Source: Verrucomicrobiota bacterium (GTDB lineage: Bacteria; Auribacterota; JABMQX01; JAFGEW01). From it: DNA of 64,000 nt. The number at the start of each line of letters is the position of its first letter. Position 1 is the first letter of the stretch. Location: positions 1 to 64,000 of the forward strand of contig JAFGEW010000072.1 of assembly GCA_016931415.1 (NCBI GenBank), read 5' to 3'. Below, one piece after another: positions 3,280 to 42,891 of this stretch. The notes beneath the pieces were generated by a model. It saw nothing but the letters and a program-made list of their open reading frames with translations. It was not told where the DNA came from and searched no databases. A program made the position numbers and the translations under genes.

Positions 3280-4674
3280 TCACACCAACGCGCCGGCGCC
3301 CCTCGGGGCGGCGAACACCCCCTCGGCCCGGTACTGGTTGAGCTTGTTGCGCAACGTGCGCACGCTGATCTGGAGCACTTCAGCCGTCCGCCCGCGGTTA
3401 CCGCCCAGCGCCTGGAGCGTCTTGAGAATCAGGCGACGCTCCATCTCGGCTACCGTGTGGCCAACGGCATCGACGATCTCGTCCGTGTCGTCGCCCTCTT
3501 GCCCGACGGGGCGCAGGGTGAGGTGTTCGGCGCGAATCTCATCGTCGGCGTCGAGCACGATGGCGCGCTCGATGACGTTCTGCAGCTCGCGCACGTTGCC
3601 CGGCCAGGAGTAGGCCGACATCGCCTCGATCGCATCGCGGGCGATCGTCTTCGGCGGCCGGTTGTTCTCGCGGCTGTAGCGCTCGACGAAATGCTGGGCG
3701 AGCATCAACACGTCACCGTCGCGCTCGCGCAGCGGCGGCAGCGTGATCGGGATGACGTTGAGCCGGAAGAACAGGTCCTCGCGGAAGCGCTTCGCCTCGA
3801 TCTCTTCATCCAGGTTGCGGTTTGTCGTCGTCACGATCCGCACGTCGACCTTGATCGGCCGTGTTCCTCCGACGCGCTCGAACTCCCGCTCCTGGAGCAC
3901 GCGGAGCAGCTTAGCCTGGAGTCCCAGAGGAATCTCGCTGATCTCGTCGAGGAGCAACGTGCCGCGGTGGGCCAGCTCGAACCGGCCCGGCCGCCGCATC
4001 ACGGCGCCCGTAAACGCTCCCTTCTCATGGCCGAACAGCTCGCTCTCGAGCAGGCTCTCGGGGAGCGCGGCGCAGTTGACCTTGATGAACGGCGCGTTGG
4101 CCCGTGCGCTGTTGTAGTGGATCGCGCGCGCCACGAGTTCCTTGCCTGTCCCGCTTTCGCCCTGCACGAGCACAGTGGCCCGGCTGTTCGCCACCTTGCG
4201 GATGACCTCGAAGACCCCGTGCATCACGGCCGCCTTGCCGATGATCTCGCCGAAACCGTGCTCCTTGAGGATCTCGCCTCGCAGATACGTGTTCTCCTCG
4301 ATGAGGCTCTGGCGCTCGGCAGCCCGCTTGATGACCATCTCGATCTGGTCGGGCGAGAAGGGCTTGATAATGTAGTCGAAGGCGCCGACCTTCATCGCCT
4401 CCACCGCGCTTTCGACGGTTGCGTACGCCGTCATCATGACGACCACCGACTCGGGCGTGCACTCCCGCACGGCGCGGAGCAGCTCCATGCCGCTCAGATG
4501 CGGCATCCTGATGTCGGTGAACACCAAGTCAAAGGTCTCCGCCTTGACCTTCTTGAGCGCCTCTGCTCCGTCGGCCGCGCTCTGGACCTCAAAGCCCATC
4601 CGGGTCAGCGTCTCGACGAGAAACTTGCGGATCAACGGCTCATCGTCAACCACAAGCACGTTCTGCAACGCCAT
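3280..4674 (-). CDS. Sigma-54-dependent response regulator of the NtrC/FlgR type
   Basis: Activator that, when phosphorylated, uses ATP to open sigma-54 promoters. Order in 464 residues: receiver domain (about 5-118; [19 protein letters not shown], phospho-Asp in [14 protein letters not shown], Lys in YIIKPF); AAA+ domain (about 140-375) with Walker A GESGTGKE, the sigma-54 contact loop GAFTGA intact, Walker B-like [10 protein letters not shown] and R-finger region; and a C-terminal Fis-type helix-turn-helix ([20 protein letters not shown]). It sits between a PAS kinase and the flgB promoter, the arrangement expected for a FlgS/FlgR-like pair driving rod and hook genes. The cognate kinase is probably the gene directly upstream. 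Confidence 0.92.
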
Positions 4675-6542: not shown

Positions 6543-8423
6543 TTACTTCGATGCGTCCTTGATCTGCTTCATCATGGCAATCGCACTTGCCTTGGCCACG
6601 GCGCGGTCGGCCCACAGTGTGCCGCGGAAGCGCCTCTGCACCTCGTCGTAGAGCGCTTCGGCGCGCTCGGGGTTGTTGAGCCGCTCGTAGGCGCGCCCCA
6701 TGCGGTAGAGCACCTGCGCCTCGTCGACGAACGCGGCCTTCTTCTCGAGAAGGCGCTGCGCCCAGTTCAGCTCGTCCTGACAGAGGCCGTGGTTGCTGAA
6801 CGAATCGAGCAATTGGATTGCGGCCCGGGACCTGACGGCGAGTTGCGCCGGGGTATCATCCTCGCGCCCGCCGTCGATGATGCGCATGTACTGGCGCCGC
6901 GCGTCGTCGAGCCATCCCTTCTTGACGTAGCAGGCGGCCAATGCAGCGACCCCCTCGAGTGCGAGCGCGTGCTCGGGCGCGCGCTGCAACGCCATGTCGT
7001 AGGCCTCGAGGGCTTCGTTGTAGTAGCCGGCGCTGTAGTAGCTTTGGGCGATCCAGTAGGCGACGAGGTCGCGGTCAGCCGACGTGAGGTCCCCTGCCGC
7101 CGCGCCATAGAGCTCCTCGAGCGCCATCGCCCACTCGCCGTCGAGTAACAGGACCTCGCCTGCGAGCATTTTCGATCGCGACACCTCCTGCGGCGTCGGT
7201 GCCGGATCGCGGGCCGCCGGGACGCGGCGCAGCATGTCGAGCGCCTCCGTATAGAGCGCCAGGCGCTTGTACGCATCCGCAGCACGAAACAACGCCGGGA
7301 TGCGCTGCTCGTAACTCGGGAAGTCCGCGAGTGCGACGGAGTAGTACTTGAGCGCGTGCGCCATTGCCCCGTCAGCGTAGTACGAGTCGGCGAGCATGAA
7401 CGCGGCAGCGGGACGGTAGACGTTCAGCTCGTAGCCGTAGACAATGCCGCGGAGCGAGGCGCGCGCGCGCGCCGTCTCGCCGCCGGCCAGATACAGCCGC
7501 GCCAACGCGAACTGCCGCGTGTCGCGTTCCGCTTGCGACCGCGCTTCCCGGAGCAGCTCCTCGTAGATGCGCGCCGCCCTGTCCATATGACCCAGCGCAA
7601 GCTCGACCGACGCGAGCCCCTCGCGCGCGCACAACTCGTGCGCGCTGCCATGCACCGTGAGGCGAATAACATGCTCAAAGGCCTGAGCCGCCGCGTCCCA
7701 CTCACCGAGCACCTTGTGCGCCCGGCCCGCAAGCAGGTACGCGTTGACCTGGAGTGGACTGTCCAGGTAGCTGTCGATGAGTAGGTAAGCCTCATCTCGC
7801 GCCGCGATGCAATCGCCTGCATCGAAGAGCACACGGGCCCGCTCGAGGCGGGCGTCGTCGGCAGTGTCGGCCTCCGGGAATCGCTCCAGGAGCATCTCGT
7901 ATTCGCGCAGCGCGGCGCGCCATTCGCCGCGGCGCGCATAGATCGCCGCGATGCGCATGTGGGCCGACGGCACGAACGACGAGTCCGGGAATCGCACGAT
8001 GCCTTCGCGGTAGCTGCGGATGCTCCGGTCCTCGAGGTAGGTGCGCCGCGCGTTCATACCCATGGTCGCGGGGATAGCGGGCCAGACCGACCCCTGCTCC
8101 AACATCTCGTCCAGGAACTCGCCCAGCGTGTTCGTTCTGTCTTCGGGCACACCGGCCTCGCGTTCGTCCTCGGTGCCTTCCGCGGTCATAACCACTGAAG
8201 GGACTGCCGGTTCGACGAGCTCGTCGGCGGGCGGCATGAGCTCGCGCGCGCTGCGCGGCCCGCTCGATCGCGGCAGCAGCGGCCCCTCGCCGCTCAGCAC
8301 CATGTCGTCGTCGAGGCTGACGTCGGCGAGACTCGGGCAGACGAGCACGCTTGTGAGCATGAACGCGAACAGCCCGAGGCACACACGTCGTCGACAGCCA
8401 ATCTGGAGGATCAGACGGTTCAC
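6543..8423 (-). CDS. Secreted tetratricopeptide-repeat protein
   Basis: 626 residues with an N-terminal signal peptide (about 1-33; LGLFAFMLTSVLVCPSLAD) and then mostly TPR-type helical hairpins. Typical repeats include IAAIYARRGEWRAALREYEM, DTRQFALARLYLAGGETARA, IAQSYYSAGYYNEALEAYDM and RMGRAYERLNNPERAEALYD. No catalytic motif is seen. It should act in the periplasm as a scaffold. It starts within the stop codon of the preceding TPR gene (ATGA overlap), so the two are translationally coupled and may form a complex. Motility-associated TPR proteins exist in several phyla, but I cannot assign a named family. Confidence 0.8.
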   Translation of the reverse strand: MNRLILQIGCRRRVCLGLFAFMLTSVLVCPSLADVSLDDDMVLSGEGPLLPRSSGPRSARELMPPADELVEPAVPSVVMTAEGTEDEREAGVPEDRTNTLGEFLDEMLEQGSVWPAIPATMGMNARRTYLEDRSIRSYREGIVRFPDSSFVPSAHMRIAAIYARRGEWRAALREYEMLLERFPEADTADDARLERARVLFDAGDCIAARDEAYLLIDSYLDSPLQVNAYLLAGRAHKVLGEWDAAAQAFEHVIRLTVHGSAHELCAREGLASVELALGHMDRAARIYEELLREARSQAERDTRQFALARLYLAGGETARARASLRGIVYGYELNVYRPAAAFMLADSYYADGAMAHALKYYSVALADFPSYEQRIPALFRAADAYKRLALYTEALDMLRRVPAARDPAPTPQEVSRSKMLAGEVLLLDGEWAMALEELYGAAAGDLTSADRDLVAYWIAQSYYSAGYYNEALEAYDMALQRAPEHALALEGVAALAACYVKKGWLDDARRQYMRIIDGGREDDTPAQLAVRSRAAIQLLDSFSNHGLCQDELNWAQRLLEKKAAFVDEAQVLYRMGRAYERLNNPERAEALYDEVQRRFRGTLWADRAVAKASAIAMMKQIKDASK

Positions 8424-9757
8424 GGCTCACGCTCCAACGACTGCGCTTGCCTGTCGAACGACTCGGCGAAGAGGAAGAAGGCGTGCTCGCCGACGGGCTC
8501 ACCGCGATGCGCGTCGGCGAGCTCGGCCAGCGTCTGGCGCGCGCGTTGATACTCGCCGGCGGCCATCAGGCTGGCCGCCAGATCCAGCCGCGCCTGCGTC
8601 CGCAGCGGGCTGTCGGGGTGCTCGCGATCGATCTGCTCGAAGTGCTCGATCGCCGTTTCGTTCGAACCAAGGTCAGCGAAACAGCGCCCGGTCTTGTAGA
8701 GCAACTCGTCAACGGGAAGCGCGGCGGCGTCGGCCCGCCCTTCGATGACTTCTCTCAGCACCGCCGAGTAGTGGCGAATGGCACCGTTCAGGTAGTGCGG
8801 CTCAGTCGCACCGAGCTTGGCGTACACCTCCGCAAGCCGCGCGTGAGCAAACGTACGCTTCATCCCGAGCGGCGTCGTGCTCACAACGTTCTCGAGCATC
8901 TCGAGGCCGTCCGCCAGGTTGCCGGTCTTGACAAGCTCCGAGCCATGTTCCCAGTTGCGCATGGCTGGCGGCGTGCCGACGCCGCCGCCAAGCCGAACCT
9001 GAGTCAGCGCCGCAGCCAACCCGACCGCCAGCACCGGCACAAGCACGTACAGCAGGCGGCGACGCCGACGCTGCTGCGTCTCGATCTGCGCTTCGGCCGC
9101 CGCGAGGGGAACCGGCTCGACCGACGTCCCAACCTCCGTCCCAACAACTGCCTCGTCCCCGGCCTCAGTCACGCCGCCCTGGGTCTCGGAACCCGCGCGG
9201 CCATGGGCGCGCGCCGCGTTGACGCGCTCGGCCTCGCTAGGCTCAACCGGCGTCTCGTTGGAGGCAACGCCCTGCGGGGACGGTACCTCGACCGTATCCG
9301 CTAACTCCTTGGGTGCGGCCGCGAGTTTCCTCGCCTCGGCCGGCCGTCTCTCTTCGGGAGCGCGGTCAACAGGCCCCTGTGGCTCCACGGATGTGACCAT
9401 GGCCTCTGCCGCGCGATTGGCACCGTCAGAAGCTGTAGTCTTCTCCGCCGCCCCCTTGTCGGATGCGGCTTCCGGGCCTGGCACTCCGGAGGGCTGTTCA
9501 GTATCAGCGACCGTGTTATCGGAGTCCGCGGGAAGGGCGTCGGCAATCTCAACGCGCTCCGTCGGGTCTTCTGCCGCCAGCGTGGACGCCGCGTCCTCGG
9601 GGCCCGCCGCCGCGTCCTCGGGGCCCGCCGCCGCGTCGATCGCCTGGAGCAGGTCGTCGAGCTCCGACGAGCTCTCCGCAGACTCTGGCGCTTGCCCGGC
9701 GGGGGCGCCGGATGCCTTGGGGCCAGGGATCGGACTCTTCTTGGACTCGTCAGTCAT
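8420..9757 (-). CDS. Single-pass membrane protein with long acidic cytoplasmic region and periplasmic TPR region
   Basis: About 445 residues. Residues 1-230 are low-complexity, rich in Ala, Glu, Pro and Ser, and probably unstructured. An arginine patch (QQRRRRRLL) is followed by one membrane segment near 236-256 (YVLVPVLAVGLAAALTQV). The C-terminal part has TPR-like helices (FAHARLAEVYAKLGA, ELLYKTGRCFADLGSNETAIEHF, ARLDLAASLMAAGEYQRARQTL). The start is the ATG at 9757, which overlaps the end of the STAS gene by eight bases; the open frame continues to 9952 but lies inside that gene. The layout suggests a link between cytoplasmic signalling and the periplasm, but its function is unknown. Confidence 0.75.
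   Translation of the reverse strand: MTDESKKSPIPGPKASGAPAGQAPESAESSSELDDLLQAIDAAAGPEDAAAGPEDAASTLAAEDPTERVEIADALPADSDNTVADTEQPSGVPGPEAASDKGAAEKTTASDGANRAAEAMVTSVEPQGPVDRAPEERRPAEARKLAAAPKELADTVEVPSPQGVASNETPVEPSEAERVNAARAHGRAGSETQGGVTEAGDEAVVGTEVGTSVEPVPLAAAEAQIETQQRRRRRLLYVLVPVLAVGLAAALTQVRLGGGVGTPPAMRNWEHGSELVKTGNLADGLEMLENVVSTTPLGMKRTFAHARLAEVYAKLGATEPHYLNGAIRHYSAVLREVIEGRADAAALPVDELLYKTGRCFADLGSNETAIEHFEQIDREHPDSPLRTQARLDLAASLMAAGEYQRARQTLAELADAHRGEPVGEHAFFLFAESFDRQAQSLEREP
9588..9629. repeat. Two tandem 21-base units in a TPR gene
   Basis: Two perfect head-to-tail copies (9588-9608 and 9609-9629) followed by a partial third, encoding AAAGPED-type repeats in the unstructured cytoplasmic part of the membrane TPR protein. 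The repeat keeps the frame, so it probably varies in copy number without breaking the gene. Confidence 0.85.
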
Positions 9758-12357: not shown

Positions 12358-13722
12358 TCACGCGCGCGCCAAGCCGTACTTGCGGATCTTGGTGTAAAGC
12401 GTCGTGCGATCGATGCCGAGCGTCTTGGCCGCCCGGTTCTTGTTCCAGCCGACCGCCTCGACGACACGGCGGATGTACTCCTTCTCCACGTCGTCGAGCG
12501 TCATGTCGGTCGACATCGGAACCGTTGGCTCAATGGTCTTGGCCACCTTGTGCGCCTCGGCAAACAGGAGGTGCTCTGGCAGCAGCACGTCTTCGGCTTC
12601 GAGCAGAATCGCCCGCTCAATCGTGTTGCGGAGCTCGCGCACGTTGCCCGGCCAGTGGTAGTCAACGATCATCTGCTCCGCCTCGGGCGAGATCTTGTAG
12701 ACGTTCTTCTTGAACTCCACATTGAACCGGTCGATGAAGTGCTTGGCCAGCAACAGTACGTCGCTGCCACGCTCGCGCAGCGGCGGCAGCGTGATCGGTA
12801 CGACGTGGAGCCGATAGTAGAGGTCCTCGCGGAACTTCCCGTCGGCCATCGCCGCCTGCAGGTCGCGGTTCGTCGAGGCGATGATGCGGATGTCGACGCT
12901 GACCTTCGACACCCCGCCCACGCGAGTGAACGATCGCTCCTGCAGGGCGCGCAGCAGCTTTGCCTGAAGGTTGTAGCTCATGTCGCCGATCTCGTCGAGA
13001 AACAGGGTCCCTTTGTCGGCCAGCTCGAACAGGCCTTTCTTCTGCTGCTTCGCGTCGGTGAACGCGCCCTTCTCGAACCCGAACAACTCGCTCTCCACGA
13101 GCGCCTCGGGCACCGCCGTGCAGTTGAAGTCGACAAACAGCTTGTCGCGCCGGAAGCTCCAGTAGTGGGTCGCGCGCGCCGCCAGCTCCTTCCCCGTGCC
13201 GCTCTCGCCCTGAATGAGCACCGTCGATGAGTTGCTCCGCGCCACGCGCTTGAGGTACTCGCACACCTTGCGCATCGCCGGGCTCTCGCCGACGATGAAG
13301 TCGGCCTCGAACTCAGCCTGCTCGCGTGCGCGCACGATCGACAGCTCCTTCTTGAGCGCAAGCGTCTCGAGCGCATTGCGAACGACGAGCTTGATCGCCT
13401 CGAGACTGAACGGCTTGTCCACGTAATCGTAGGCGCCGTGCTTCATACACTTGACCGCGTTCTCGATATCGGCGAATGCCGTCATGATGATCACGACGAT
13501 GTCATCCTGCACCTTGCGCGCTTGCTTGAGCACCTCGATGCCGCTTGCCTTCGGCAGGCGCATGTCGAGCAGCATAATGTCCGGCCGCTCCTGCCGCACG
13601 AGCTTGATGGCCTCTTCGCCCGAACCCGCCTCGCACGTTGTGTACCCTTCATCGCGGAGCGCCTCGGCCAGAGAAAGCCGGATACTCTCCTCGTCATCAA
13701 CGATCAGAACCGATGCATCCAT
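12358..13722 (-). CDS. Second sigma-54-dependent response regulator (NtrC family)
   Basis: 454 residues: receiver (about 4-115; [19 protein letters not shown], phospho-Asp in [14 protein letters not shown], Lys in YVDKPF), AAA+ domain (about 140-370; Walker [21 protein letters not shown]) and a Fis-type helix-turn-helix ending the protein ([20 protein letters not shown]). The sigma-54 contact loop reads GAFTDA rather than GAFTGA, a substitution known in a minority of these activators. It follows its kinase by three bases. It faces the lipoprotein operon promoter and the palindrome at 12294-12310, so it may control that operon. Confidence 0.9.
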
Positions 13723-29528: not shown

Positions 29529-30842
29529 ATGAAGCGAAACGGAACGTGCCTCATCACCGGCGGCCGGGTCATCGACCCATCGCAGAATCTCGACACGCAC
29601 GCTGACGTGCTGATCCGAGACGGCCGAGTCGCCGAAATCGGCAAAGGCCTCAAGGCCGACAAGGCCGCGACGCTCGATGCGAGCGGGTGTGTCGTCGCGC
29701 CGGGCCTCATCGATATGCACGTGCATCTGCGCGAGCCCGGCTTCGAGTACAAGGAGGACATCGCGAGCGGCACACGCGCAGCCGCCCACGGTGGCTTTAC
29801 GTCCGTCGCCTGCATGCCGAACACCAACCCGGTGATCGACACTCCCGGCGTGATCGACCTGATCTGCATGCGCGCCGAGGAAGCCGGCGTCGTCAACGTC
29901 TTCTGCATCGGCGCCATCAGCACCGGCCTCGAAGGCAAGGACATCGCCAACATCGGCCTGCTCGTCGAGGCCGGCGCCGTTGCCGTGAGCGACGACGGCA
30001 AAGGATCGCAGGACAACTACGTGCTGCGCCGCGCGCTCGACTACGCCAAAATGTTCGGCGTGCCCTACATTTCCCACGCCGAGGACAAGCGCCTTGCCGC
30101 CGATGGCGTCATGCACGAGGGCCACTACTCGACGCTGCTCGGCCTGAGCGGCATCCCGTCCGCCTCCGAGGAGATCCACGTCGCCCGAAACGCCATCCTC
30201 GCCGAGCTCACCGGCACCCCGTGCCACATCGCCCACATCAGCTCGGCCGGGTCGGTGCGCATCGTGCGCGAGGCCAAGGCGCGCGGCGTGCCGATCACCG
30301 CCGAGGTGACGCCCCATCATTTCGCGCTGACCGACGCCTGCATCACAACCTACGACGCGAATTTCAAGATGAACCCGCCGCTGCGCAGCGAGGACGACCG
30401 CCAGGCCCTGCTGGACGGCCTGCGCGACGGCACGATCGATTGCATCGTCACCGATCACGCTCCACATTCCTGGAGCGAGAAACAGGTCGAGTTCCCCTAC
30501 GCCGCCTTCGGCGTCATCGGTCTCGAAACCGCACTCTCGGTCGCCTGCAACGAGCTGCTCCACAAAGGCGTGCTCGACTTGCGCGGCCTCATCGACAGAC
30601 TGACCTGCGCTCCCGCGCACATCCTCAATCTCAACACCAAGGGCTCGCTCAGGAAGGGCGTGGACGGCGACGTGACCGTCTTCGACCCCGATGCCGAGAC
30701 CACCGTCAACGCTGACACGTTTGCCAGCAAGAGCCGCAACACGCCGTTCAACGGCTGGAAGCTCAAGGGCGCACCGGTAGCTACCGTCGTCGCCGGTCAC
30801 GTCGTCTGGAACGCACGCGCCGCATCGAAGGCAGAGGCCTGA
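29529..30842 (+). CDS. pyrC: Dihydroorotase, class I
   Basis: Zinc amidohydrolase closing carbamoyl aspartate to dihydroorotate. 437 residues. Metal ligands are visible: [16 protein letters not shown], the SDDGKG loop, EVTPHHF, and [11 protein letters not shown]. All catalytic residues are present, so it is active rather than a pyrC-like structural partner. It starts twelve bases after pyrB, and its stop overlaps the carA start. Confidence 0.95.
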
Positions 30843-32002
30843 TGATTGACACCCCGAAGAAGCCCGCGATCCTCGCCCTCGAGGACGGCACGGTCTTTCA
30901 CGGCACGGCCTTCGGCGCCGCCGGCGAGCGCGTCGGCGAGGTCGTGTTCAACACCGCCATGACCGGCTACCAGGAGGTGCTCACCGATCCGTCGTACTGC
31001 GGCCAGATCGTCACGATGACCTACCCGCTCATCGGCAACTGCGGCGTCAACCGCCAGGACGTTGAATCGCGTCGCATCTGGGTCGAAGGCTTCGTCGTGC
31101 GCGAACTGAGCCGCATCCCGGCCAATTGGCGCCAAACGGCCACGCTCGACGAGTACCTCGCCAGGAGCGGCGTGCCCGGCATCCAGGGCATTGACACGCG
31201 CGCGCTCACCAAGCACATCCGTACCGCCGGCGCGCTCAAGGGCGTCATCTCCAGCGTCGACCCCAACGAGAAATCGCTCGTACGCAAGGCGCGCGAGTGG
31301 GTCGGCCTCGTCGGCCAGGACATGGTCAAACACGTCACCTGCGCCGAGCCGTACCACTGGGACCCCGACAGCGCCGAAAGCCGTGCCTGGACCCCCGAGG
31401 AGCCGCGCCCTGAGCTGCCCGAGCCGCGTTTCCGCGTCGCCGCCATCGACTGCGGCATGAAGACCAATATCCTGCGCCGCCTGCGCCAGGAAGGCTGCGA
31501 TGTCACGGTCTTCCCCGCGCACGCCGCCGCCAACGACGTGCTCGCCGCCAGACTCAACGGCGTCTTTCTCTCCAACGGCCCCGGCGACCCCGCCGGAGCG
31601 CCCTACGTCTTCGAGACCATCCGCAAGCTGCTCGGCAAAGTGCCCATCTTCGGCATCTGCCTCGGCCACCAGATGCTCGGCCTCGCCTGCGGCGCCACGA
31701 CGTACAAACTCAGATTCGGCCACCGCGGCGCCAACCAGCCCGTGCTCGACCTGACCACCGGCAAGATCGAGATCACTTCGCAGAATCACGGCTTCGCCGT
31801 CGACGTCGCTTCACTGCCCAACGCCCTCGTCCAGACCCACATCAACCTCAACGACCGCACCAGTGAAGGCCTCGAACACACCAAGCTCCCTGCCTTCAGC
31901 GTCCAGTACCACCCCGAGGCTTCCCCCGGCCCCCACGACGCCGCCTACCTCTTCCCCCGCTTCATCAAGCTGATGGAAAAACACCCCATCTCGACGCGCT
32001 GA
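30842..32002 (+). CDS. carA: Carbamoyl-phosphate synthase small (glutaminase) chain
   Basis: Releases ammonia from glutamine and feeds it to CarB. 386 residues: N-terminal CPSase domain ([34 protein letters not shown]) and a class I glutaminase domain with the nucleophile Cys in [14 protein letters not shown] and the His-Glu pair in [14 protein letters not shown]. The last 72 coding bases before the final four codons recur exactly at 35212-35283, so this copy of the 3' end was duplicated; here it ends KHPISTR. No carB follows, contrary to the usual order. Confidence 0.96.
31919..31990 (+). repeat. 72-bp direct repeat, copy A (inside the carA 3' end)
   Basis: Perfectly identical to 35212-35283. 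Copy A encodes carA residues from SPGPHDA to KHPI in frame. Immediately flanking bases differ on both sides, so 72 bp is the full extent. The interval between copies holds one gene. Confidence 0.95.
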
Positions 32003-32039
32003 GCGGTCGATCTAGTGACAGCAGAACGCGCTCGACCGC
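32003..32039. repeat. Inverted repeat at the carA end of the insert
   Basis: GCGGTCGA and TCGACCGC, eight-base arms 21 bases apart, starting directly after the carA stop. It could be a terminator for the pyr operon (no T-run) or a mark of the inserted segment. Confidence 0.4.
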
Positions 32040-32047
32040 GATGCTTG

Positions 32048-32076
32048 TTGACATCATGGACCTGCTGTTCTATCTG
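32048..32076 (+). promoter_or_regulatory. Possible promoter of the repeat lipoprotein gene
   Basis: TTGACA, 17-base spacer, TATCTG. The -35 is perfect, the -10 weak. It is inside the interval between the two 72-bp repeats, so the inserted gene would bring its own promoter. Confidence 0.45.
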
Positions 32077-32170
32077 GTTGCCCAGGTCCAGGCAGCACGG
32101 GAACACACATCGTCTCGATGCTTCCCCAGCGGGAGGAATGTACCGTAGTTGCAGAAAGGTAGAACCCGCC

Positions 32171-35100
32171 ATGTTCAAGCACCTCCGCCTTGCAGTCGCT
32201 GCTATTGTCTTGCTTTCTGTCGGGTGTGCCACCACAAACACGGGCAGACTCAACTCCAGGAATGCCGAGCAGCGCAACGCCCCCTCGATTTCGCGTCCGG
32301 AAGTCGTCAAGGAGGACTCCTGGGGCCGTGCTGCAATCCATGGCCGCGTGCTCGCACCGGACGGGACGCCCCTCAATGACGCACAGGCCATGGGCTCGTT
32401 CACGTCCTGGGCGTTCTCCCCCTGCCATGCCAACGGTTCTTTTGAGCTGGACGATCTCGCTCCCGGCAGGCATGCGTTGATGTTCTGGCACCGGGACTAC
32501 GCGCCCGGCATCTTCGGCCCCGTCGACCTCAAGGCAGACGAGCTCCTGCGTGGCGTGGAGATCCGCCTCGCTCCCGGAGGCTTCGTGAGCGGGACCGTGC
32601 GGAACGAGCAAGGCGAAGCCGTCGAGAACGCCCATATATGCATCCAGCGGGCAGAGGAACCGGAGGGCGACCTTGGCAAGATTGCCACGGAGCTCCTGAT
32701 GCGTCCGATGTGGCAGGCGACCTCCATGATGGGTCACTACTCATCAGACGCCCTGCTCCCGGGCACGTATCGGATCAGCACACCACTCGGCCTCGCGGAA
32801 TCCCTCGTCGAGGTGCGGGTCGGTGAGCGGATCGAAGGCATCGACCTCGTTGTCGGCAAGGGCATGGCCGTCAAAGGGCATGTCCTCGACTGGGACGATA
32901 GCCCGGTTGAGAACGCACGGATCACCGCCCCAGGGAACTGGGAGGGCATTCTCACCGACTCGGATGGGCGCTTTGAGCTGTGGGGTTTCGAGCCGGGCCC
33001 GTGCGACATCTACGTGGAGGCCGATGACTTCCACGGAAGCTCGCTGGCAACGACGGCACCCGTCGAGGACTGCCAGATCCAACTCGTCCCTCGGCCTGTC
33101 ATCCACTTACGCGCCGTGGACAGGCAGACCCGGCAACAGGTCAACGTGACGGGTGTGAGCGTAGACTCAGCCTCGTTCTGCCAATGCGACCCGCGGTCGG
33201 ACGAGCCCGTGCGAGTTCCACTCTCAGGATCCGGAGATTACTCGCTCACCCTCTACGCCGACAAGTATGCTCCAGCAGTCATCGACGCAGTGCGGGTGCT
33301 CGACGGCGAGATAGTCGAGGAACTCGTCGTTGAGATGACCCAGGGCACGACGCTCCTCTTTCACGTCCTCGACAGACAGACCGGCCTTCCCATCGAAGAC
33401 GCGTGCATCAAGGACGAGGGGAAAACAGACACACGCGGGCGGTGCACGGTCGAGCATCTGGAGTCGGGGCTTCACGAATTCGAGATTTCGCACCCCTCCT
33501 TCGCCTTGCAGGTCATCACGGTCGAGACGAGCGAACTCGATTCGATGAAGGAAGTCACTGTTGCTCTCGACACCGGGGTCACCCTCCGTGGGCAAGTCCT
33601 CTCCAAGCGCACGGGAGAACCCATCGAGAACGCATGGGTTTCTCTTCGTAAGGACGAACTCTTCACCCCTCACAATACCAGCAGGGGTGAGTACTGTACC
33701 CGGTCACGGACCGACGGTAGTTTCAGCTTCCGCCTCGACCCTGAGGGCGAGGAGCGCCTCGCGCCCGGCCGCTACACGCTCGACGTGTCGCACAAGAACT
33801 ACGCACCAATCCATTCCCAGCTTACACTCGATGCTGAGCCGGGGCGTTTCCTCCCGCTCGCGCTGGAGAATGGCTTTCGCCTTTGCGGCAGCGTCATGAC
33901 AAGGGACGGCAGACCGGCCAGCCGCTGCTCTATCCGGCTCACGGGCATGGAAGGGCAGCGCTACTGCCGGGCCGGGCAGGTCAATGCGGACGGCACCTAC
34001 GAAGTGGGGCATCTGAACCCGGGAACATACGAGGTCGAGATCGAGAGATGGCCCGCCTTCGACGTGTCATACGTCGTTATCAGCGAGGACACACGCGCCG
34101 ACTTCTTCGTTGGAGGGGCCGCAGTCTGTGGCGTGGTCACTGTCGCGGACATGAGACGCTACCCGAACCTTCTCTTCATCGAGTCCCAACAACGGGGCTT
34201 CCTATGGCGCGGAACTCGCGCCCGTGGTGCGTGCGACGACGATGGGGCGTTCCGCGTCGAGCACCTGCCGCCCGGCACTTACACCCTTGGCCTTGACACC
34301 CGCGCCATGAATGCGCCCAACGATGCTCTGATGCACGACATCGTTCTCGATGATGAGGACGTCTCGGTCGATGCCGCCGACAGTGTGAACTGGGTCCGCG
34401 GTACGGTGAGAGCCGACACCGGGCGCCCCGCCGTCTTCGCTCGAGTCGAACTCATCACTGAACCGCCAGCCCACCGTGTCGAGGCGCTCGTCCGCGAGCT
34501 CCACTCAGACCGCCTCCCCCACGTGGCCGATGACAATGGTCGGTTCGGCATCGACTGCGTGCCTGCCGGTTCTCACTACCTCCTGGTAAGCAAGGGCGCC
34601 TATGCGACTCGTGCCGTGCGGGTGCACAAGACGGTCGGCGAAGACCTCACAGGCCTTGACGTTGTCCTTGAGCCGTCGTGCCTCCTGACGATCGAGTGCC
34701 GGAACCCCGACGGCACCATCTCCGACAGCTTCTGGCTGGCCGTCGTCGACAACCAAGGACGGCCCCTCCTCAACAACTGGGTGTGCCCTGATCGCTCCAC
34801 GGGCGAAGTGCTCATCGCAAGCCTCGGTCCCGGCCCATACGAGATCGTCGCCAAAGCCCCCGACCATGCCATCCTGAGAAAGAACGTCGTCCTCGTTCGC
34901 GGCGCGGTCAACCACGAGCAGCTCGACCTCGAGCCGGGCCACACGTTGGAAGTCATCGTCGTCGGTCAGAACGGTGAACCGGTCTCGCTCGCCGAGGTCG
35001 TCCTCGACACGGGCGATGACGTTGCTCTCTCAGCGGAACTGATCAGATGTCAGGGCGTAAGAACAACCGACGCCCAAGGCATAACAACCCTCCAGCACGT

Positions 35101-35266
35101 CGTGGACGGTACATGCACCGTCCGCGTTCTCGCCGATGGATTTCAGCACGCCGAACAGCATGTCCGCATTGCCGGACACGATACACTGACAACGATCACC
35201 CTCATACCTTTGCTTCCCCCGGCCCCCACGACGCCGCCTACCTCTTCCCCCGCTTCATCAAGCTGA
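32171..35266 (+). CDS. Large lipoprotein of carboxypeptidase-regulatory-like repeats
   Basis: About 1031 residues. The start MFKHLRLAVAAIVLLSVGC is a signal peptide with a lipobox, so it is membrane-anchored and faces the periplasm or cell surface. The rest is about ten beta-sandwich repeats of about 90 residues, each opening with a G-x-V...G-x-P-x-x-x-A pattern (IHGRVLAPDGTPLNDA, VSGTVRNEQGEAVENA, VKGHVLDWDDSPVENA, LRGQVLSKRTGEPIENA, VRGTVRADTGRPAVFA). No enzyme motif is seen; such proteins bind surfaces or polysaccharides. The last 18 or so residues (proline/serine-rich) are read out of frame from the second 72-bp carA repeat, so the original C-terminus is probably lost. Confidence 0.8.
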   Translation: MFKHLRLAVAAIVLLSVGCATTNTGRLNSRNAEQRNAPSISRPEVVKEDSWGRAAIHGRVLAPDGTPLNDAQAMGSFTSWAFSPCHANGSFELDDLAPGRHALMFWHRDYAPGIFGPVDLKADELLRGVEIRLAPGGFVSGTVRNEQGEAVENAHICIQRAEEPEGDLGKIATELLMRPMWQATSMMGHYSSDALLPGTYRISTPLGLAESLVEVRVGERIEGIDLVVGKGMAVKGHVLDWDDSPVENARITAPGNWEGILTDSDGRFELWGFEPGPCDIYVEADDFHGSSLATTAPVEDCQIQLVPRPVIHLRAVDRQTRQQVNVTGVSVDSASFCQCDPRSDEPVRVPLSGSGDYSLTLYADKYAPAVIDAVRVLDGEIVEELVVEMTQGTTLLFHVLDRQTGLPIEDACIKDEGKTDTRGRCTVEHLESGLHEFEISHPSFALQVITVETSELDSMKEVTVALDTGVTLRGQVLSKRTGEPIENAWVSLRKDELFTPHNTSRGEYCTRSRTDGSFSFRLDPEGEERLAPGRYTLDVSHKNYAPIHSQLTLDAEPGRFLPLALENGFRLCGSVMTRDGRPASRCSIRLTGMEGQRYCRAGQVNADGTYEVGHLNPGTYEVEIERWPAFDVSYVVISEDTRADFFVGGAAVCGVVTVADMRRYPNLLFIESQQRGFLWRGTRARGACDDDGAFRVEHLPPGTYTLGLDTRAMNAPNDALMHDIVLDDEDVSVDAADSVNWVRGTVRADTGRPAVFARVELITEPPAHRVEALVRELHSDRLPHVADDNGRFGIDCVPAGSHYLLVSKGAYATRAVRVHKTVGEDLTGLDVVLEPSCLLTIECRNPDGTISDSFWLAVVDNQGRPLLNNWVCPDRSTGEVLIASLGPGPYEIVAKAPDHAILRKNVVLVRGAVNHEQLDLEPGHTLEVIVVGQNGEPVSLAEVVLDTGDDVALSAELIRCQGVRTTDAQGITTLQHVVDGTCTVRVLADGFQHAEQHVRIAGHDTLTTITLIPLLPPAPTTPPTSSPASSS

Positions 35267-35283
35267 TGGAAAAACACCCCATC
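35212..35283 (+). repeat. 72-bp direct repeat, copy B (carA 3' end remnant)
   Basis: Exact copy of 31919-31990. In the carA frame it continues to KHPITP and a TAG at 35290-35292, so this may be the original end of carA, displaced 3.29 kb. The lipoprotein gene reads into it in another frame and stops at 35266. Confidence 0.95.
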
Positions 35284-35289
35284 ACACCG

Positions 35290-35318
35290 TAGGCATTCAC
35301 GGGGCCCCGGGATACAAT
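35290..35318 (+). promoter_or_regulatory. Possible promoter of the membrane TPR gene
   Basis: TAGGCA, 17-base spacer, TACAAT; 30 bases before the start at 35348. The -10 matches at five of six positions. Confidence 0.5.
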
Positions 35319-35347: not shown

Positions 35348-36268
35348 GTGAGTCTGCTCTTCAAGATCTACACGATCCTCAAAGGGCATCCGCCACCCGA
35401 GCTACCCGAAGAGTGGTCTTGGCCGAGCGGCATGCGCAAGTTCGGCTTCTGGGCCCCGCTCGGTTGTCTCATTGCCGCGGGTTTCCTCTACCTGTTCTTT
35501 CCCGACTGGGCGGAAGCTCCTCGACACAAGTACCTCAATCCTTCGCCGTACTGGGACATGCTTCTGTGGGGTGCGGGCGGGAGTGCAGGCATCGCCCTGT
35601 TCGTGTTCCTCCAGAACAAGCGCTGGCTCGACGTGTTGTACCTTCTCTTCTCGTATGTCGGATTTGGCTTGTGGATCGCCGCTTACGTTGTCGCACCGCG
35701 CGGGGGCCGGATCGCGCTCGTTCTCACGGGTGCCCTTGCCGTGTCCGGCTGGGGCGTCTTCACCGGGACCCGCAGGCTACGCCGGACGCGCGATGCTCGC
35801 GCGCGCGTCAACACCGCCTCCGAGTTGCTCAGGCAGGGCCAAACCCGCAAGGCCCTCGCCTTGCTCGACGTCGCGGTGAGGAACGACGAGCGAAACGCGC
35901 TCGGCTGGCTCACTCGCGGCCTCGTGCTGGCCCAGACCGGCCGCGACGAGGAAGCGATTGCCAACCTCACGAGTGCCATCGAGCTTGAGCCCCACCTGCT
36001 CCTCGCCCTCAAGACTCGCGGCGTCCTCCACGCACGCGAAGGGCGACACCAGGCAGCCGCCGCCGACTTCTCCAGCGCCCTCATCGAACATCCCGACGAT
36101 GGCGATCTCTATGTCCACCGCGCCGAAGCGTTCATCGCCCTTGAGGCCTATGACCGCGCTTGGGGTGACGCCAAGCGGGCCGACAAGCGCGGCCATCCCG
36201 AAGCCCCTCACCTGCTGCAGAAACTCCGCCACCTCGCCCCAGGCTACGAGTCTCGCGGCCAGGTGTAG
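35348..36268 (+). CDS. Membrane protein with C-terminal TPR repeats
   Basis: 306 residues. About four membrane segments in the first half (FGFWAPLGCLIAAGFLYLFF, MLLWGAGGSAGIALFVFLQN, LDVLYLLFSYVGFGLWIAAY, IALVLTGALAVSGWGVFTG), then three TPR units (ASELLRQGQTRKALALLDVA, GLVLAQTGRDEEAIANLTSA, HRAEAFIALEAYDRAWGDAK). GTG start with GAGGGG seven bases upstream. TPRs should face the cytoplasm if the N-terminus is inside. No enzyme motif; partner unknown. Confidence 0.75.
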   Translation: MSLLFKIYTILKGHPPPELPEEWSWPSGMRKFGFWAPLGCLIAAGFLYLFFPDWAEAPRHKYLNPSPYWDMLLWGAGGSAGIALFVFLQNKRWLDVLYLLFSYVGFGLWIAAYVVAPRGGRIALVLTGALAVSGWGVFTGTRRLRRTRDARARVNTASELLRQGQTRKALALLDVAVRNDERNALGWLTRGLVLAQTGRDEEAIANLTSAIELEPHLLLALKTRGVLHAREGRHQAAAADFSSALIEHPDDGDLYVHRAEAFIALEAYDRAWGDAKRADKRGHPEAPHLLQKLRHLAPGYESRGQV

Positions 36269-40604: not shown

Positions 40605-41750
40605 GTGCACGTGGCAATCGACATACAGGGCCTCCTGCGGCAGAAAACAGGCGTCGGCCACACGCTTTACGACCTGATCGAGGCACTCGCCGCACTCGAT
40701 GCGCCCGATGAGTTCACGGCCTTCTACTTCAGCCGCCGACCTGTCGGCCTGCCGTTCTGCCGCGAGCGCTTCCGCGAACGCCGTGTCGCGTTCCCGCCCG
40801 GGCGTTTGCTGAGCCTCATGTGGAAACGCCTCCCGTTCCCGCCCGTAGATGCGTTTCTCGACGAGGCCGACGTGGTCCATTTCCCCGATTTCGTCGCGCG
40901 CCCCGTGCGCCGCGGCAGAGTCATCGTCACCGTGCACGATCTCTCGTTCCTTCGCCTGCCCGAGACGGTCGAGCCAAAGAACCGCGCGTTTCTCAGCCGC
41001 AACGTGCCGCGCAGCCTCGAGCGCGCCGACGCCGTGATCGCCGTGTCGGACTTCACCCGCCGCGAGCTCGAGGAGGTCTTCCCCCAGGCTCGCGGCAAAG
41101 TCCACGTCATTCGCCACGGCGTGCGCCGTGTCTTCCGGGGCGTCGGGCAATCGCGCGCTGATGCCAAGCCGGCACCCGAGTTGCCCAGCCGATACGTCCT
41201 GGCCGTCGGCACCGTCGAGCCCCGCAAGAACCTGGGTGTGCTCCTCGACGCCATGGACATCGCGCGACGACGGAAGGCCTTGAGCCACGTCGTGCTCGTC
41301 GTCGTGGGAGGATCCGGCTGGCTCGCCGGCGAGCTCGAGCGGCGTCTCGCCGTCGCCCAACAAGCCGGCCTCGTCGTCCGTCTCGGCTACGTCACCGACG
41401 AGACGCTGCGCGACCTCTACGCCAACGCCGCCGCGCTCGCATTCCCGACCAAGTATGAGGGCTTCGGCCTGCCGGCGCTCGAGGCGATGGCCTCCGGCCT
41501 GCCCGTCGTCTGCTCGAACGTTGCCTCGCTGCCCGAGGTCGTCGGCGACGCGGGCATCCTCGTCGAGGACCCGGCGCCTGGGCCGTTCGCCGATGCCCTC
41601 GAGCGTGTGCTCACCGACGAGACGCTCGCCGCCGACCTGCGCCAGCGTGGACTCGAGCGCGCCGCGACGTTCACCTGGGAGCGCGCGGCCCGCGAGACGC
41701 TCGAGCTGTACCGCCAGTTTGCGGAGGGAACCTATGCGCATCGCCGTTGA
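40605..41750 (+). CDS. GT4-family glycosyltransferase
   Basis: 381 residues, GT-B fold. N-terminal [20 protein letters not shown], a middle [13 protein letters not shown], and the C-terminal donor-site motif [24 protein letters not shown] with the E-x7-E pair, as in mannosyl- and glucosyltransferases. GTG start with CGGAG seven bases upstream. It overlaps the next glycosyltransferase by 17 bases. Donor and acceptor unknown; it should extend a lipid-linked glycan in the cytoplasm. Confidence 0.9.
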
Positions 41751-42891
41751 CTGCCGATGGATCTTCCAGAAGCTCTCCGGGATCGGCCGCCATACGCGTG
41801 AGCTTGTCCGCGCGCTGCTCGACGCGCGCTCCGGCGACGAGTTCATTCTGCTTTTCGACAATGACGGGGTGCGCCGGCGCGAGCATCTCCTCCTCGGCCT
41901 TGTGTCACGCAGCGACGCAACCTCCATCGTTGCTGGATACGGCCCATACTCGCTGAACTCGACTGTCAGCCTTCCCCGTGCTCTACGCCGACTCGAGGTG
42001 GACGTCTACCATTCGCCAAACTACATGCGCCCGCTGCGCCGCCTGAGCTGCGCGAGCGTCACCACGATCCACGATCTCATCCCATACGTCGCGCCCGATG
42101 CCATCCCGCGCTCGCGCAAGCGGCGCCTGCTGCCGCTGTACCGCCGCATCACGCGCCGCGCGGCCCGGCTTTCCGACCGCCTCATCGCCGTCTCCGAGCA
42201 CACGAAGCGCAACCTCGTCTGGCATCTGGGTGTGCGCGATGAGCAGGTCGCCGTCGTACACAACGGCCTCGATCCCTCCTTTTGCCCGGCGACGGATCCG
42301 TCAGCTCGGCGCATCCGCGAACGCTTCGACGTCCACGGGGAACTCGTTATCGCTGCCGGCCGCGCCGATCCCTACAAGAACCTGATCGCCCTCGTGCGCG
42401 CGGTCGAGCACCTCGTCCGGGCGGGCCGCAGCGGACTGCGCTGTCTGCTCATCGGCGAGCCGGACGAGCGCTACACCGACGTGCGCGACTACGTCAAGGA
42501 CAACGGCCTCGACACGCACGTGCGCTTTACCGGCTATCTCGACGAGGCCGATCTGATCGCCGCGTATCAGGAAGCCGATGTCCTCGTGCATCCGTCGCTC
42601 TACGAGGGCTTCGGCCTGCCGCCGCTCGAGGCCATGGCGTGCGGCACGCCCGTCGTCTCGTCGAACCGCACGTCGCTCCCCGAGGTGCTCGGCGATGCCG
42701 CGCTCCTCATCGATCCGGAAAACGTCGACGACTTGCGCCACGCCATCGCGCGGGTGCTCGATGACGCCGCGTTGCGCGACTCGCTCCGCCGACGCGGCCT
42801 CGAACAGGCACAGCGGTACACCTGGCAGCGCGCGGCGACCGAAACCCTCGGCGTCTACCGCGCGGCATTCGAGGCACAGCGCACACGATGA
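41734..42891 (+). CDS. GT4-family glycosyltransferase
   Basis: 385 residues, similar in layout to the gene before it and probably a paralogue: [38 protein letters not shown], then VIAAGRADPYKNLIALVRAV and the donor-site motif HPSLYEGFGLPPLEAMACG. GGAGG lies six bases before the ATG. The start overlaps the upstream gene and the stop overlaps the next start (ATGA), so the three are tightly coupled. Confidence 0.9.
   Translation: MRIAVDCRWIFQKLSGIGRHTRELVRALLDARSGDEFILLFDNDGVRRREHLLLGLVSRSDATSIVAGYGPYSLNSTVSLPRALRRLEVDVYHSPNYMRPLRRLSCASVTTIHDLIPYVAPDAIPRSRKRRLLPLYRRITRRAARLSDRLIAVSEHTKRNLVWHLGVRDEQVAVVHNGLDPSFCPATDPSARRIRERFDVHGELVIAAGRADPYKNLIALVRAVEHLVRAGRSGLRCLLIGEPDERYTDVRDYVKDNGLDTHVRFTGYLDEADLIAAYQEADVLVHPSLYEGFGLPPLEAMACGTPVVSSNRTSLPEVLGDAALLIDPENVDDLRHAIARVLDDAALRDSLRRRGLEQAQRYTWQRAATETLGVYRAAFEAQRTR

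Follow-up and report, generated by a model that had tools for sequence, protein, structure and literature searches.

We find that the segment at positions 31991-35211 of the window, as we call the whole 64,000-nt stretch of DNA analysed here, is an insertion at the 3' end of carA that has kept the carA reading frame. The inserted 3,221 bp (63% GC) carry a single large gene and no recombinase, and they are bounded on both sides by copies of the carA 3' end. The origin that we favour, with a modest preference (probability about 0.6), is a homology-anchored illegitimate insertion in which the old 3' end of carA was displaced downstream.

The two copies, at 31919-31990 (copy A) and 35212-35283 (copy B) of the forward strand, agree at 72 of 72 bases, and the identity breaks off sharply on both sides. 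A search across all 4.06 Mb of the genome (134 contigs, 98.9% complete) placed the 72-bp repeat at just these two sites, with the next best match at E = 0.57. The host gene (30842-32002, forward strand) was identified by the Pfam families CPSase_sm_chain and GATase, both far above cut-off, and encodes the small chain of carbamoyl-phosphate synthase, a pyrimidine and arginine enzyme. It is intact: copy A, the last conserved part of carA, now lies within the working gene, which ends in KHPISTR-TGA. Copy B lies outside any working carA and is a displaced or duplicated carA 3' end. Read in the carA frame, it runs through a short forward-strand tail, ACA CCG TAG (35284-35292), to give KHPITP-TAG, and this tail is the probable original end of carA. 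The TPR-repeat protein gene beyond it (35348-36268, forward strand; Pfam TPR families) would probably be the original downstream neighbour of carA.

The first-pass annotation, made from the letters of the window, had described the mismatch-free repeat, the two readings KHPISTR and KHPITP, and a large repeat lipoprotein with no integrase between the copies, all of which we confirm. It had also seen a promoter-like sequence before the lipoprotein gene, which does not survive a sigma-70 scan; the only match, TAGGCA-17-TACAAT at 35290-35318 of the forward strand (consensus scan only), begins in the stop codon of copy B and precedes the TPR gene. The inverted repeat reported just after carA does exist in imperfect form, immediately 3' of copy A (31991-32048, forward strand, core GCGGTCGA...TCGACCGC), but the hairpin that it could form (-24.9 kcal/mol) folds no better than shuffled sequence (z = -1.07) and was dismissed. 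The 72-bp repeat is itself carA coding sequence that folds weakly (-10.8 kcal/mol). A CACCCC motif found 3 nt before both repeat borders of the window was considered as a cut-site signal and rejected, as it is absent from the other cases described below.

The sole large ORF of the insert, which contains no integrase and no transposase ORF, is the lipoprotein gene (32171-35266, forward strand), with the lipobox LSVGC and carboxypeptidase regulatory-like repeats (Pfam PF13620). Its family has further members in the same genome at about 30% identity. The gene is devoid of its own last codons and stop: after ...ITLIP it enters copy B and is read there for 18 codons in another frame. Four paralogues in the genome stop 3-4 codons past the matching ...TVTLKP-type position, with ends that include ...VTLKPWSE*, ...VTLKPRTE* and ...VVLERAE*. 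Since the lipoprotein reaches the end position of its paralogues and then runs into copy B, the right border of the insert, at 35211, cuts the cargo gene just short of its natural end. This truncation had not been mentioned before.

The layout is tied neither to carA nor to a known element, and a second case is present in the same genome. We scanned for gene 3' ends repeated downstream in 0.76 Mb of it, extended to 1.17 Mb (about 29%), and the sole further case in this sample was ychF (NCBIfam TIGR00092, above cut-off). Its final 42 nt recur without a mismatch (42/42) 1,901 bp downstream on contig C87, and both copies run in the same frame into a stop, copy A into TAG and copy B into TGA, parallel to the tail behind copy B of carA. 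The insert between them (1.86 kb) carries three genes, a TIGR04255-family gene and two small ORFs, one of which resembles the end of the candidate defence protein PDC-M32A; no recombinase was found in it. Six related genomes contain double ychF matches; these were discarded, each consisting of two full-length frames and not of an orphan end. Downstream of the ychF insert, the same contig carries an IS630-like transposase gene (DDE_3, HTH_33; locus L323, 6213-7262, minus strand) directly behind a recQ-like ORF, and this transposase may interrupt recQ.

Additionally, we surveyed 164 distinct carA loci from many phyla and found a clear duplication of the carA end in two loci besides the window, both from Opitutaceae (Verrucomicrobiota). 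At the first (L086), the last 73 nt of carA (7445-7517) recur 804 bp downstream (8249-8321) at 96% identity, and the insert is a single AbiEii-like nucleotidyltransferase gene. The copies differ at three positions, all synonymous and all at the two edges. The empty site is represented by three other genomes (G098, G180 and G163), with 80-83% identity to L086 in carA: there, the gene found behind copy B in L086 comes immediately after carA. Inside the L086 insert lies a REP-like inverted repeat (7594-7649) with dozens of relatives across that genome.

At the second locus (G164), a nucleotidyltransferase gene of the same kind lies between carA, here only 66% identical to the carA of L086, and a 60-nt copy B with its own stop. 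The G164 copies are identical over 46-47 nt, and their six differences, which are third-codon-position changes or a TAG/TGA swap, all fall in the last 14 nt (clustering p about 6e-5). By their sequences, the two copies look like two functional carA alleles joined together and not like one working and one decaying copy. Between them, the nucleotidyltransferases of L086 and G164 share 74% identity, less than the 78-81% at which the G164 enzyme matches copies from other genomes at unrelated loci, and this suggests that L086 and G164 are two separate insertions. Such genes also occur at unrelated loci without long flanking repeats in four genomes (G082, G185, G125 and G165; loci L236-L239). A third member of the Opitutaceae (G132; locus L291, reverse strand, 463-1151) has an addiction-module antitoxin and a ParE toxin directly behind carA, and the pair is followed by sequence resembling a decayed, in-register carA end with a stop. 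This is possibly a decayed third case, which we treat as tentative because its score of 37 compares with a decoy maximum of 36. Together, the ychF case and the Opitutaceae carA loci with their empty sites support the earlier proposal that DNA was inserted at the 3' end of a gene and rebuilt that gene.

The relatives available for the window organism are more distant, comprising a single genome from its class and about 40 from its phylum, with carA about 50-63% identical. The nearest, of the same class, has a carA about 60-63% identical, followed by carB. Neither the TPR gene nor the lipoprotein gene lies beside carA in any of these class and phylum relatives, and no donor with carA directly followed by the lipoprotein of the window was found among the loci compared. 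Since the nearest relative belongs only to the same class, an empty site is seen for neither the window nor ychF, so the comparison suggested by the first-pass annotation succeeded for L086 and not for the window. Polarising the two carA tails by homology failed, as conservation in CarA does not extend to the last residues. One relative (G020; contig C212:3380-4447) has an in-frame TGA within its carA match.

These comparisons bear on the idea that carA had the lipoprotein gene beside it ancestrally and that only the 72-bp carA end was patched into the end of that gene. Such a patch would account for the loss of the natural lipoprotein end exactly at copy B, but the in-frame carA stop of copy B would then have arisen by chance, and neither ychF nor the Opitutaceae cases would be explained. 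In L086, moreover, copy B leads into the gene that directly follows carA in relatives. We therefore judge an ancestral-neighbour origin to be very improbable.

A joining error during assembly, the other concern raised by the first-pass annotation, would have linked unrelated contigs through the 72-bp carA end in a short-read metagenome assembly, for instance from a mixture of strains with and without the insert. The assembly does consist of 134 contigs with an estimated contamination of 4.5%, and the repeat length is near common k-mer sizes. However, one genome contains two separate cases with repeats of different lengths (72 and 42 bp), and independent assemblies show the same architecture with copies that have diverged by substitutions, which a joining error cannot make. 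Misassembly is thus a very unlikely source of the pattern.

We then considered recombinases and known mobile elements. No convincing integrase or tyrosine-recombinase signature lies next to carA in the fetched loci, and the genome of the window holds two tyrosine-recombinase matches (not classified), on other contigs, and no match to a serine recombinase. A Xer pair would be expected to give two such tyrosine-recombinase matches. No end motif above chance length is common to the four inserts, and the phage and viral collections searched for a carA-end attachment site returned whole carA genes or unrelated matches only. This count of recombinases, the dissimilar insert ends and the fact that no integrase was seen beside any of the insertion sites, ychF included, give no support to a dedicated element family. 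An insertion sequence or composite transposon was rejected, given that there is no transposase ORF, that no terminal repeats match and that the duplication is 72 bp long. An integron gene cassette was likewise discarded, the repeat being weakly folding carA coding sequence in a genome with two tyrosine recombinases in all.

The same results weigh against the element that the first-pass annotation had in mind, one of the integrase type moved in trans or left as a remnant. The 3' ends of carA and ychF would be its attachment sites, and its integrase would now be absent, as in a cis-mobilizable element or a satellite moved in trans. At both genes a duplicated core does rebuild the 3' end of the target, with the gene end reconstructed on both sides, and the cargo of the other cases (AbiEii-like, ParE pair, TIGR04255) is small and of a mobile type. 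Integrative islands and cis-mobilizable elements in the 3' ends of protein genes likewise duplicate the gene end as left and right junctions and leave the gene intact. Unlike them, the segments described here have no integrase inside or recognised beside them, no recognised match among the recombinases of the window's genome, no shared core or ends, and one to three cargo genes; the window insert even cuts its own cargo gene.

The recurrence of carA as a target in two phyla would also fit attachment sites. A single scan over 2.94 Mb of fetched loci gave carA three times and ychF once as clear gene-end cases. With the window left out, the comparison is of 2/163 carA loci with one gene among some 2,700 others (p about 0.009, the gene number being estimated). 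Because of this estimate, and because the Opitutaceae cases share their cargo, the view of carA as a hot spot for such insertions is only suggestive. All told, we regard an integrase-type element as improbable. The duplication by homologous recombination that had been listed as an alternative comes closer to the route that we favour.

The route of recombination, and the direction in which the event ran in the window, are our inference. The incoming DNA would have brought its own carA 3' end with the lipoprotein gene behind it, and this carA end would have paired with the resident carA. Some 72 bp upstream of the tail of the resident carA, the other end of the incoming DNA would have been joined illegitimately. 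The last gene of the insert would have been cut 3-4 codons short. The incoming end would thereby complete carA (copy A plus STR-stop), and the old carA end (copy B plus TP-stop, then the promoter of the TPR gene) would be pushed behind the insert. Each of the four well-defined copy A ends reaches an in-frame stop in no more than four codons, whereas such a stop is met at random places of the window in 1-6% per case (about 6% for a distance of up to four codons). The four clear cases thus point the same way, toward homology-anchored insertion.

A staggered break could produce much the same picture. Nicks on opposite strands about 72 bp apart in carA would be filled in and unrelated DNA captured between them, so that both copies would stem from the same allele and the captured DNA would have supplied the new carA stop, by chance or selection. 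For the window itself, this does nearly as well as homology-anchored insertion. No recombinase is seen, the insert ends share nothing, and the repeat lengths vary (42, 60, 72 and 73 nt). The perfect identity of both own-genome repeats, 72/72 at carA and 42/42 at ychF, fits either of these recombinase-free routes. The stops close behind all four copy A ends are harder to accommodate, although selection for a working gene could explain them, and the clustered synonymous differences of G164 are not predicted by the decay of one allele. The G164 copies speak for the homology-anchored route over a fill-in. We consider a staggered break possible but rather unlikely.

A broader proposal concerns an undescribed route that needs no local recombinase and perhaps acts in trans. 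It would place cassettes of one to three genes exactly at the 3' ends of housekeeping genes, carA and ychF among them, in phyla that are not related; the gene end would be restored, and its old version would lie beyond the cassette. We advance this tentatively and think it unlikely as matters stand.

Several known systems show parts of this pattern. Insertion with long target duplication was derived from a comparison of Helicobacter pylori strains and linked to restriction-modification genes (Nobusato et al. 2000, cited in PMC1643837, PMC3031569). As far as those citing accounts describe it, the likeness is close: a gene lies between long direct copies of the target, with no transposase or integrase inside and with variable repeat length, and relatives have a single-copy empty site, here seen for L086. 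The window case belongs to this pattern, with differences in cargo and in its regular 3'-end position. Its cargo is a lipoprotein gene and not the restriction-modification genes of those accounts, and in every case here a housekeeping gene was hit in its last 42-73 nt, with the frame kept in both copies and mostly a stop as well.

For arrays of type VI secretion effectors and displaced rhs tips, it has been proposed that a homologous gene end anchors incoming DNA while the other end is joined illegitimately (PMC5361080). The likeness lies in homology-anchored DNA that replaces a 3' end and pushes the old end downstream; in those arrays, however, what is displaced is a variable toxin end or an immunity gene, whereas here it is the conserved end of an enzyme gene with cargo added behind. 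Single transposed genes of Arabidopsis are also flanked by direct repeats of target-site sequence, for which re-insertion of a circle was proposed (PMC2869330), but these are eukaryotic and linked to tandem duplications.

Our cases imply that essential housekeeping genes can receive new genes behind them, with no integrase involved and no harm to the host gene. Such an insertion leaves a simple, searchable scar, namely the last 40-75 bases of the host gene again downstream. With two cases in less than a third of one genome, and carA hit again in another phylum, the route would seem common enough to merit a systematic survey.

Other repeats came up along the way. Those of seven loci from the general scan (L065, L279, L058, L292, L087, L160 and L185) proved on inspection to be dispersed short repeats or paralogous ORFs. 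At L065, in an Omnitrophota genome, the end of carB runs into a dispersed short repeat of the TGTCATCCTGAGC type that recurs 0.9 kb downstream (8037-8083 and 8943-8989). The window itself contains two further pairs of diverged repeats, each about 80% identical: 3675-3786 and 12723-12834 in paralogous response-regulator-like ORFs, and 41454-41566 and 42601-42713 in paralogous tandem glycosyltransferases.
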